Source of the DNA: an uncultured Fibrobacter sp.
GTDB taxonomy: Bacteria > Fibrobacterota > Fibrobacteria > Fibrobacterales > Fibrobacteraceae
DNA length: 64,000 nucleotides
Assembly: GCF_947166265.1 (NCBI RefSeq)
Contig: NZ_CAMVDO010000004.1
Coordinates: forward strand, 62,001 to 126,000
Direction of reading: 5' to 3'
In this document: positions 35,314-37,341 of the stretch, piece by piece
Position numbering within the stretch: position 1 is the first letter of the stretch
Layout of the letters: each line of letters begins with the position of its first letter
Made by a program: the position numbers and the translations under genes
The notes under the pieces: generated by a model
The model's database searches: none
Told to the model about the DNA's origin: nothing
Seen by the model: the letters and a program-made list of their open reading frames with translations, nothing else

Positions 35314-35337
35314 AAGGACCCTAAGGGGTCTTTTTTT
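35314..35337. terminator. Bidirectional terminator between pgpA and the radical SAM gene
   Basis: AAGGACCC-TAA-GGGGTCTT hairpin followed by T7 on the plus strand; on the minus strand the stem is followed by a TTTT run. The stop codon of the radical SAM gene lies in the T-run. Confidence 0.8.
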
Positions 35338-36463
35338 ACAAATCATCACATATAGCGGAATCACAAATTGTGGCGAGCATCCGTTCGTGCGTACAGACTT
35401 CGGGCGAAACCTCGTGGATATTGCCCGTGGAATAGAACGACGTGCAGGCACATTCGTGCGCATGGCAACGGAACCGCAAGGCACAGCCCTTACAGTCATC
35501 CTTGTCGCGATTAAAGAAATCCAAGATATCACGGGCGACTGGTCCATCCCAAATCTGTACCGATTCATCGAATACGCTCCCCAAAATGTAGGGAGCATCT
35601 TTCTTGCTACTGATAAATCGCGTGCAGGGGAAAAGGTTCCCGTTTGCAGCACAGGCGACAATGCCCTCGGCCACATGGCAGCTCGATTGACGGTGGCGCT
35701 GCCCCGTCAGGCGAAATTTCAACTTGTCCTGAATCGTCCCCAGGTAAAAGGGAACCTTCTTGCGTTTGAGTTCGACCCAGAATTCGGCAAGTTTTTCATA
35801 TTGCGCAGCAAGGACATCGAATTCATCGTCCGTCCACTTGCCGTCAAAATCCACGGCGGCAGTCATATTCCTGAACCCTTGCGTCTGAATCCAACGGACA
35901 GCCTCCGAAAGCGAACGCATATTGTCGCGGGTCACCACCGAAAGGACTACGGTATCGAGCTTTGTGAGAACGGGAATGTGCGGCTCAATCAGTTTGAAGG
36001 AGCCCTCCCCGCCCACCTGCTTGCGGCAGATATTATGATGCGATTCCGGGCCGTCAAGCGAAAGGTAGATGCGGAAATTTTCATGTTTCAGGTATTCGAT
36101 GATTTCCGCATCCAAGAGCGTTGCGTTCGTATTCACCGCAAAACGCAGGCGGAACTTCGGCGCTGGCGAATTCACAGTCGTCTGCCCAAGCAAGGCATCT
36201 TCGCCAAAGCGTTCTCTAACAAGACCTTTCGCAAACTCTACTCCCCTGTAAATGGAATCGAGACAAAGCAGCGGCTCTCCTCCGAAGAACGTAATGTTCA
36301 AGAACCGCTGCTTTAACGAAAGCGTTCGCTCAAAAGCCAAACGGATGGCCGCCTCCATAATGTCATTCGACATCACCAGACTGCGCGCTTCGTGGCTCAC
36401 CTTGTAATAGCAGTAGGTGCAGCGAAGGTTACAGCGTTCCGTTAAAGAAAGAACGAGATTCAT
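35336..36463 (-). CDS. Radical SAM/SPASM peptide-modifying enzyme
   Basis: 375 residues. Radical SAM cluster CNLRCTYC (C11, C15, C18), SAM-binding GGEP at about 61-64 and LSLDGP in the middle. The C-terminal SPASM region is Cys-rich (SCHVAEG, CAANGNLFPC, CKGCALRFRC, CACTSF, EVC) and would hold two auxiliary FeS clusters. This layout is that of the anaerobic sulfatase-maturing and peptide-maturase enzymes. The ATG overlaps the TGA of the Ser-rich lipoprotein gene (TGATG), so that protein is the obvious candidate substrate. No sulfatase gene is nearby. Confidence 0.88.
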   Translation of the reverse strand: MNLVLSLTERCNLRCTYCYYKVSHEARSLVMSNDIMEAAIRLAFERTLSLKQRFLNITFFGGEPLLCLDSIYRGVEFAKGLVRERFGEDALLGQTTVNSPAPKFRLRFAVNTNATLLDAEIIEYLKHENFRIYLSLDGPESHHNICRKQVGGEGSFKLIEPHIPVLTKLDTVVLSVVTRDNMRSLSEAVRWIQTQGFRNMTAAVDFDGKWTDDEFDVLAAQYEKLAEFWVELKRKKVPFYLGTIQDKLKFRLTGQRHRQSSCHVAEGIVACAANGNLFPCTRFISSKKDAPYILGSVFDESVQIWDGPVARDILDFFNRDKDDCKGCALRFRCHAHECACTSFYSTGNIHEVSPEVCTHERMLATICDSAICDDL

Positions 36464-37212
36464 CAGTCTTTCGGATCGTCTATATAGATGACTTCGGGTT
36501 CAGCAACAACACCCGACAACGGCTCCGGTTCAATTTCAATCGGGTCGCCAGGGAAGGGCTCCGGTTCCGCAGAAGAAGAGCTTTCTTCTAAAACGGGCAA
36601 GCCTGCGGTAAGTGTCGAATCGATTTCGACCTCATTTGCCGATGAGGACGGCAAAACATCTACCGACGAGGAACTACTTTCAGGATCCAGTTCAACGACT
36701 CCGGCTTGCGGAGGAAACGGCGGAATCGAGGAGCTGGAACTTAAATCATGGGACTGGTCGAAAGGAGATCCCGATTCCGGTTCCAAGGTATCCGGCGGGG
36801 CAATTTCGCCCGAGGTGATTTCCAAAGTGTCGATACTGTAGCTGCTAGAAGAAACGCCGCTGACAGGGGCGCTGCTAGAATTCGGCTGATACGCACTCGA
36901 CGAGGAATTGTCAATATCAGGAGGAACAACCCCTGGCGTCATGATCGGTTCCAGGGATGAAGACGATCTTTCCGACGAAGACGACGAATTCAAAGTCGCC
37001 TGTTCGGAAGACGAACTTAATGTTTCCCGTTCGGAAGACGCCCCAGTTTCGGGAGGAAGGACTGCGCCACTTGTCGTATTCGTGCCAAGATCACACGCCG
37101 AAAGTACAGCCCCCGAAAGGAATGCAGAAACACCTAGCATCGAGGCGAGCTTCTTTTGTGTGGAAACCGACCATTCGCGGTTCCTTTCAACCTTCTTTTT
37201 CTGGATATTCAT
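36463..37212 (-). CDS. Ser-rich repeat lipoprotein, candidate substrate of the radical SAM enzyme
   Basis: 249 residues from the ATG at 37212, which has GGAGG 6 bases upstream. A long basic N-terminal stretch (about 22 residues) precedes a hydrophobic core and lipobox VLSAC (Cys 40). The mature part alternates serine clusters (SSSS runs) with short related units: SGAVLPPE (48), TPGVVPPD (92), TSGEIAPPD (133), QAGVVELD (169), TAGLPVLE (202) and LSGVVAEPE (232). It has few basic residues after the signal and no predicted fold. It resembles the lipoprotein partners of rSAM/lipoprotein peptide-modification systems; family membership was not tested. Confidence 0.75.
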   Translation of the reverse strand: MNIQKKKVERNREWSVSTQKKLASMLGVSAFLSGAVLSACDLGTNTTSGAVLPPETGASSERETLSSSSEQATLNSSSSSERSSSSLEPIMTPGVVPPDIDNSSSSAYQPNSSSAPVSGVSSSSYSIDTLEITSGEIAPPDTLEPESGSPFDQSHDLSSSSSIPPFPPQAGVVELDPESSSSSVDVLPSSSANEVEIDSTLTAGLPVLEESSSSAEPEPFPGDPIEIEPEPLSGVVAEPEVIYIDDPKD

Positions 37213-37313: not shown

Positions 37314-37341
37314 TGCTTTAGAACATGTCTAAAGCATTTTT
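37314..37341. terminator. Hairpin with flanking A/T runs, possible terminator
   Basis: Perfect 9-base stem TGCTTTAGA / TCTAAAGCA with loop ACATG, followed by T5 on the plus strand and by T6 on the minus strand. It lies in the 374-base gene-free region 37213-37586 between the lipoprotein and purB. That region also holds GC-rich hairpins around 37405-37420 and 37476-37496 (CCGCGCTAAAAGCGCGG) and no convincing gene. Confidence 0.5.

Follow-up and report, generated by a model that had tools for sequence, protein, structure and literature searches.

A radical SAM/SPASM enzyme gene paired with the gene of a Ser-rich repeat lipoprotein in Fibrobacter: a probable new protein-modification system

The gene pair and its candidate substrate

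The window analyzed here is a stretch of 64,000 nucleotides of DNA from an uncultured Fibrobacter sp. On its minus strand, the gene of a Ser-rich lipoprotein (37212..36463) is followed directly by that of a radical SAM/SPASM enzyme (36463..35336), and one base is common to the lipoprotein stop codon and the enzyme start codon (TGATG). The flanking genes are ordinary, with purB upstream and a convergent pgpA-like gene downstream (names by inspection). The pair adjoins neither a protease nor a transporter nor another modifying enzyme, and nothing else seems to be part of the unit. Terminator-like hairpins on both sides may mark the pair as a two-gene unit, a suggestion that rests on pattern matches only (5 in the region vs 3.5 expected). 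The features of the locus are as follows.

37314..37336, minus strand: terminator-like hairpin between purB and the lipoprotein gene (pattern match only)
36463..37212, minus strand: Ser-rich lipoprotein, candidate substrate, 249 aa; lipobox ends at Cys40; no Pfam or NCBIfam match
37147..37212, minus strand: extended cytoplasmic n-region MNIQKKKVERNREWSVSTQKKL, candidate leader (conservation in close relatives; related leaders elsewhere)
37093..37146, minus strand: signal peptide core and lipobox to the lipidated Cys40 (from sequence)
37048..37071, minus strand: Gly unit 1, SGAVLPPE
36916..36939, minus strand: Gly unit 2, TPGVVPPD
36790..36816, minus strand: Gly unit 3, TSGEIAPPD, found in nearly all window-clade lipoproteins
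36685..36708, minus strand: Gly unit 4, QAGVVELD
36586..36609, minus strand: Gly unit 5, TAGLPVLE; the identical octapeptide occurs in a Lys-rich cytoplasmic protein adjoining an enzyme paralogue (locus L075)
36529..36552, minus strand: Gly unit 6, PGDPIEIE, absent from the original prediction
36493..36519, minus strand: Gly unit 7, LSGVVAEPE
35336..36463, minus strand: radical SAM/SPASM enzyme, 375 aa; radical SAM core from the start, without N-terminal extension
35317..35330, minus strand: terminator-like hairpin directly 3′ of the enzyme gene (pattern match only)

The original prediction, made without database searches, had described the TGATG overlap, six Gly-centred units spaced by 30-45 residues, and a mature lipoprotein without Cys other than the lipidated one. 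The overlap held, as did the absence of Cys apart from Cys40, and all six quoted units are present, to which the seventh (PGDPIEIE) was added. The unit glycines are residues 49, 94, 135, 171, 204, 222, and 234, with gaps of 45, 41, 36, 33, 18, and 12 residues, and the predicted spacing applies to all but the last two gaps. A Cys thioether is impossible in this lipoprotein because its mature part is Cys-free apart from Cys40. The further expectation of modification at Ser, Val, or Pro/Glu rather than as Cys thioethers is thus upheld in excluding the thioether, although modification itself has not been shown and Ser is not required at position -1 of the unit, where Ser accounts for about 48%, Ala for about 34%, and Pro for about 13%.

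The units are strongly enriched. The window lipoprotein carries 7 vs 1.03 expected, a number reached in none of 20,000 composition-preserving shuffles, although this P is optimistic because the unit pattern was picked after the units had been seen. Across the window clade (clade A below), the Gly motif occurs 90 times vs 22.8 expected in 15 non-redundant lipoproteins, whereas 15 control Ser-rich Fibrobacter lipoprotein sequences not linked to the enzyme contain it 16 times vs 17.3 expected; the control set was extracted automatically from TIGR02145 loci and includes a few noisy reading frames. Most units of clade A and of the clade C/D partners described below lack Cys, and 61 of 95 clade-A units have no W, F, Y, or H nearby. 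Enrichment of acidic residues after the unit is limited to the partners in clades A and C/D; an acidic residue within the unit was rejected as a general rule, failing in the partners of clade B, Oscillospiraceae, Myxococcota, and Saprospiraceae. Among close relatives, unit columns show no excess conservation over other mature columns (0.77 vs 0.78; 0.68 vs 0.73), and units are gained and lost through indels among closely related lipoproteins. The lipoprotein has no curated family match in NCBIfam (E up to 0.1) or Pfam, and PDB searches with it and with a Saprospiraceae leader returned nothing useful.

In the preproteins, a long stretch (median 37 residues) leads up to the lipidated Cys. In one subgroup of the window clade, conservation is highest over the whole signal peptide, residues 1-22 included (94-95% identity vs 77-78% for the mature part). 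With respect to RiPP-type logic, in which a conserved leader stands apart from a variable core, the N-terminal 22 residues reach 94%, but the remainder of the signal peptide matches them. Related MKIE/MNIK leaders are found in clade B, in sister genera, and in Oscillospiraceae. The leader pattern ATGAARATHGARAARAAR (a DNA pattern for MKIEKK) has 78 matches in 80 genomes, compared with 3 for the reversed pattern, and by position comparison about 70 of the 78 lie directly upstream of a family enzyme on the same strand; none of four other matches inspected belongs to a lipoprotein. In the distant relatives outside Fibrobacter, a Tyr-Pro pair frequently closes the leader (Myxococcota, 10/14; Saprospiraceae, 13/13; Oscillospiraceae, 2/5).

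Architecture and family placement of the enzyme

The enzyme scores above the cut-offs for PF04055 (52.1 bits) and PF13186 (27.4 bits). Its CX3CX2C motif (C11, C15, C18) and SPASM Cys set (C262, C280, C324, C327, C333, C338, C340, and C357) are conserved without or almost without exception across 104 relatives; judged from its sequence, it is a radical SAM/SPASM enzyme with the Cys set for two auxiliary clusters. Its chain begins directly with the radical SAM core, so it lacks an N-terminal RRE-like domain. The AlphaFold2 model, of high confidence (pLDDT 88.3), resembles CteB, anSME, ChlB, and TigE.

The enzyme lies outside every curated family tested, failing all cut-offs. The nearest model is that of PapB (NF047865), with 183.4 bits vs a cut-off of 340. 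Membership was likewise rejected for the GrrM/OscB cyclophane maturases (TIGR04261; 71.9 bits vs 310) and the anaerobic sulfatase maturases (TIGR03942; 99.7 bits vs 349.45). In anSME, the Asp after the second auxiliary Cys is the catalytic base; the position aligned to it is T281 and is Thr or Ser in all 104 relatives. Comparison with the FibroRumin and rSAM_w_lipo models had been proposed at the outset, and the enzyme belongs to neither family: it reaches 53 bits vs 400 for FibroRumin (TIGR04136), a model over its cut-off in 0/80 Fibrobacter genomes, and is not among the TIGR04133 matches shown (TIGR04133/TIGR04134; cut-off 425), the TIGR04133 gene of the window's genome being a separate one (G000:C1:60038-61087, 619 bits). 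The original prediction of an undescribed member of the rSAM/lipoprotein type is thus supported as a working analogy and not as membership of the named families, and the grouping with sulfatase-maturing enzymes that would have refuted it was not seen. Separately, 37 of 41 Fibrobacter genomes were seen to have a distinct TIGR04133 gene that adjoins short Cys-containing lipoproteins.

Conservation, clades, and recurrence of the unit

Of 41 relatives, 25 have the enzyme. Within Fibrobacter, 62 of 80 genomes, and 36 of the 40 good ones, gave a match at E<=0.001, although this threshold is loose and some other radical SAM genes were counted too. Across the phylum, 64 of 168 genomes match the family alignment at 1e-30, in four genera of one family. 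An adjoining partner gene accompanies 105 of the 106 enzyme genes inspected with their flanks, and the sole exception lies at a contig edge. Lack of conservation of the pair across Fibrobacter had been named beforehand as a refutation; the pair is strongly conserved.

The tree of 104 enzymes comprises clade A, which includes the window enzyme, a small clade B0, clade B, and clade C/D. In clades A, B0, and B, Ser-rich lipoproteins are encoded immediately upstream of the enzyme, with one to five in tandem per single enzyme, and an overlap of exactly 4 nt is seen in 44 of 52 B/B0 pairs. The clade-B lipoproteins are less enriched in Gly units, and their best-conserved mature feature is a C-terminal tail, SM[VI][ST]T[FY]E..D[IV], which comes after a Cys pair and is kept in 98 of 103 lipoproteins; Cys then Asp occurs in these tails. 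In clade C/D, none of the 30 enzymes has a lipoprotein; a small Lys/Ala-rich protein, preceded by a good ribosome site and without a signal peptide, starts 11-40 nt downstream. These partners form several mutually dissimilar groups on a scaffold unrelated to the lipoproteins, and no family match was found for those scanned. Many nevertheless bear units, e.g., TAGLPVLE, as in the window lipoprotein, TAGIPVLRD, IKGIPVRTK, and RGIPAPE.

Several side observations were made in these genomes. The clade-B tail is seen, e.g., in L102, L146, and L151, and clade B0 has SMPS.VGHI..P in its place. Clade C/D partners (e.g., L117, L127, L138, and L121; loci L052-L151) are histone-tail-like, and L121 and L126 each hold a tandem of two enzyme-partner pairs. 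Near clade-C enzymes at L108, L117, and L127 there are large radical SAM proteins of 689-729 aa, which carry an additional N-terminal domain and in which an HExxH motif was not found. Two enzyme copies are in two pieces (G093:C3:54978-56050 and G015:C14:574-1570), representing broken genes or assembly errors. The window's genome (G000) has 158 Fib_succ_major (TIGR02145) matches, roughly double the count in the genomes of the same genus that were searched with it.

In a cross-phylum scan with one genome per species, distant enzymes with 28-32% identity over their whole length were found in Saprospiraceae, Myxococcota, and Oscillospiraceae; for these also, PapB is the best-scoring curated model, far under its cut-off. 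Lipoproteins of Oscillospiraceae start with MKIEMKPV or MKIEPRK, which resemble the MKIEKKKV of Fibrobacter clade B, and carry LAGDVAVED-like units; an MKIE.K.V-type leader begins a lipoprotein adjoining an enzyme of 28% identity. Those of Myxococcota have SGDVAEPE at the end, LAGDVAEPE inside, or paired AGGAPMPPAPAD / AGGMPGPPARVD repeats, and SGDVAEP is common to Fibrobacter and Myxococcota; about a third of the inspected Myxococcota loci have no clear lipoprotein partner. At one Myxococcota locus (L305), a lipoprotein with repeated Cys-rich CEPCNPSS.CYDE.NPECKLGGD units adjoins the enzyme relative. The Saprospiraceae partner (L315-L328) is encoded downstream and has 410-500 residues; its YP-rich start is strongly conserved (KLxVxPxRxYxPxYPS), and the FGTG[LM]P motif occurs in it once.

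Recurrence of the unit was quantified with a position matrix for which clade-A units were the sole training set, with per-protein shuffles and Fisher P values. The matrix fits clade B (P 3e-26), the C/D partners (P 1.7e-7), and the partners in Myxococcota (P 1e-5) and Oscillospiraceae (P 3e-4), and does not fit those in Saprospiraceae (P 0.31) or control Fibrobacter lipoproteins (P 0.51). Fisher P treats related sequences as independent and the values are therefore too small, although the contrast with the control is still clear.

Proposed mechanism, alternatives, and known systems

The two genes probably constitute a self-contained protein-modification system, in which the n-region would serve as leader and the Gly units would be modified before export. 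That the lipoprotein is the substrate of the enzyme is inferred from genomic association and the recurrence of the unit, without experiment or biochemical data. The role of the leader, the order of steps, and surface display are also inferences. The lipoprotein would be made with an unusually long, basic, and conserved cytoplasmic n-region as the leader bound by the enzyme, and translational coupling would supply the two proteins together. On the nascent or freshly made preprotein, a Cys-independent modification would be placed on the Gly-centred units, roughly [T/L]-[S/A/P]-G-[D/I/E/V]-[V/P/I]-x-P/E, before export. Export, lipidation, and cleavage by signal peptidase II would then remove the leader, and the modified Ser-rich chain would stay anchored in the membrane, probably on the cell surface.

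The chemistry itself is unknown. With low confidence, a carbon-centred oxidation or cross-link, at a side chain or the backbone, may be suggested for the residue after Gly or a nearby acidic residue; PapB acts at Asp/Glu and accepts CX0-6D (PMC9413430). An aromatic cyclophane is unlikely because most units lack an aromatic residue. In clade B, where the Gly units are less enriched and the tail is invariant, the enzyme may use another site or recognition element.

Among the alternatives, the one that survives best, though still unlikely, is that the enzyme modifies the lipoprotein elsewhere, i.e., at the C..C/SMVTTFE tail in clade B and at the Ser runs or the conserved IDTLEVTSGEVIPPE segment in clade A, the other Gly units being linker composition. 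In its favor, the SM[VI][ST]T tail is kept in nearly all clade-B lipoproteins, clade-A unit columns are no better conserved than the rest, and Ser-rich linkers are frequent in Fibrobacter lipoproteins. However, clade A and the C/D partners have no such tail, and it is the Gly unit that reappears on scaffolds of unrelated kinds and in further phyla, whereas control Ser-rich lipoproteins lack it.

A PapB-like ranthipeptide system, forming thioethers from Cys to Asp/Glu in Cys-Xn-Asp/Glu motifs, is very improbable. PapB provides the best-scoring curated model for the window enzyme and the distant enzymes, it takes CX0-6D motifs, and the clade-B tails have Cys then Asp, but the only Cys of the window lipoprotein is lipidated, most clade-A and C/D units are Cys-free, and 183 of 340 bits is far under the cut-off. 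There is equally little to support a sulfatase-maturing type of enzyme, which would convert Ser to formylglycine either in the Ser-rich lipoprotein or in some sulfatase encoded elsewhere: the distant similarity to anSME in sequence and fold is set against the low TIGR03942 score, Thr or Ser at the catalytic-base position in 104/104 relatives, the absence of an adjoining sulfatase, and a unit that does not require Ser. That the neighboring proteins merely localize or regulate the enzyme is also improbable: modification has no direct proof and partners of different clades have almost no sequence in common, but up to five fast-varying tandem partners accompany a single enzyme, and a leader-like start and a short unit, all that the partners share, are the anatomy of a substrate and not of a binding partner.

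The preferred reading thus remains modification of the Gly units, and the pair, with the same pairing in relatives from three other phyla, is likely to be an undescribed two-gene system for protein modification. No description of the pair, of Fibrobacter radical SAM lipoproteins, or of SPASM lipoprotein precursors was found in the searchable literature, which is no proof of absence. A bolder reading, which we consider slightly more apt to fail than to hold, is that a cross-phylum radical SAM/SPASM class modifies Gly-centred units of several unrelated proteins and needs neither Cys nor an aromatic residue; in its lipoprotein branch, the leader would lie inside the signal-peptide n-region and signal peptidase II would act as the leader peptidase.

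Radical SAM maturation has been studied mostly on small secreted peptides. Here, entire surface proteins anchored in the membrane are the likely targets, in a rumen genus that is a major degrader of cellulose; in the sister branch, the likely targets are Lys-rich cytoplasmic proteins. Since Cys thioethers are excluded in the window lipoprotein and aromatic cyclophanes are unlikely, new chemistry may be involved. A single enzyme family acting, as inferred, on unrelated scaffolds with a short unit in common would offer a direct route to the target residue, and the many paralogues and tandem substrates provide a ready experimental set.

Known systems resemble the pair in part. As in rSAM_w_lipo (TIGR04133 with TIGR04134), also of Fibrobacter, a lipoprotein gene directly precedes a radical SAM/SPASM gene, although the TIGR04133 neighbors (L330/L331), unlike the window lipoprotein, have short n-regions and Cys-rich mature parts, with no Gly units seen. 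The FibroRumin maturase (TIGR04136), named after Fibrobacter, is likewise a radical SAM peptide maturase, from which the score of 53 of 400 separates the enzyme. With the ranthipeptide maturase PapB (NF047865) and the surrounding SCIFF/QhpD/nif11 maturases, the enzyme shares radical SAM and SPASM domains, two auxiliary clusters, and, as inferred, substrates with repeated short motifs ending in an acidic residue; however, the motifs here have no Cys (no repeated Cys-X3-Asp/Glu) and the substrate would be a large exported lipoprotein and not a small peptide. The cyclophane maturases (GrrM/OscB, TIGR04261; ChlB, PDB 9gm3) are similar in fold and have Gly-rich repeat substrates, whereas most clade-A units (61/95) have no nearby aromatic residue or His. 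The solved SPASM maturases TigE (PDB 8vpo) and CteB (PDB 5wgg) show weak sequence but clear fold similarity to the enzyme, differing in that identity is only 17-24%, the units are other, and no cytoplasmic-leader lipoprotein is the substrate. The TigE precursor, with its repeated Gly-containing TIGSVS motifs, offers a helpful precedent for reactions at aliphatic residues next to Gly.
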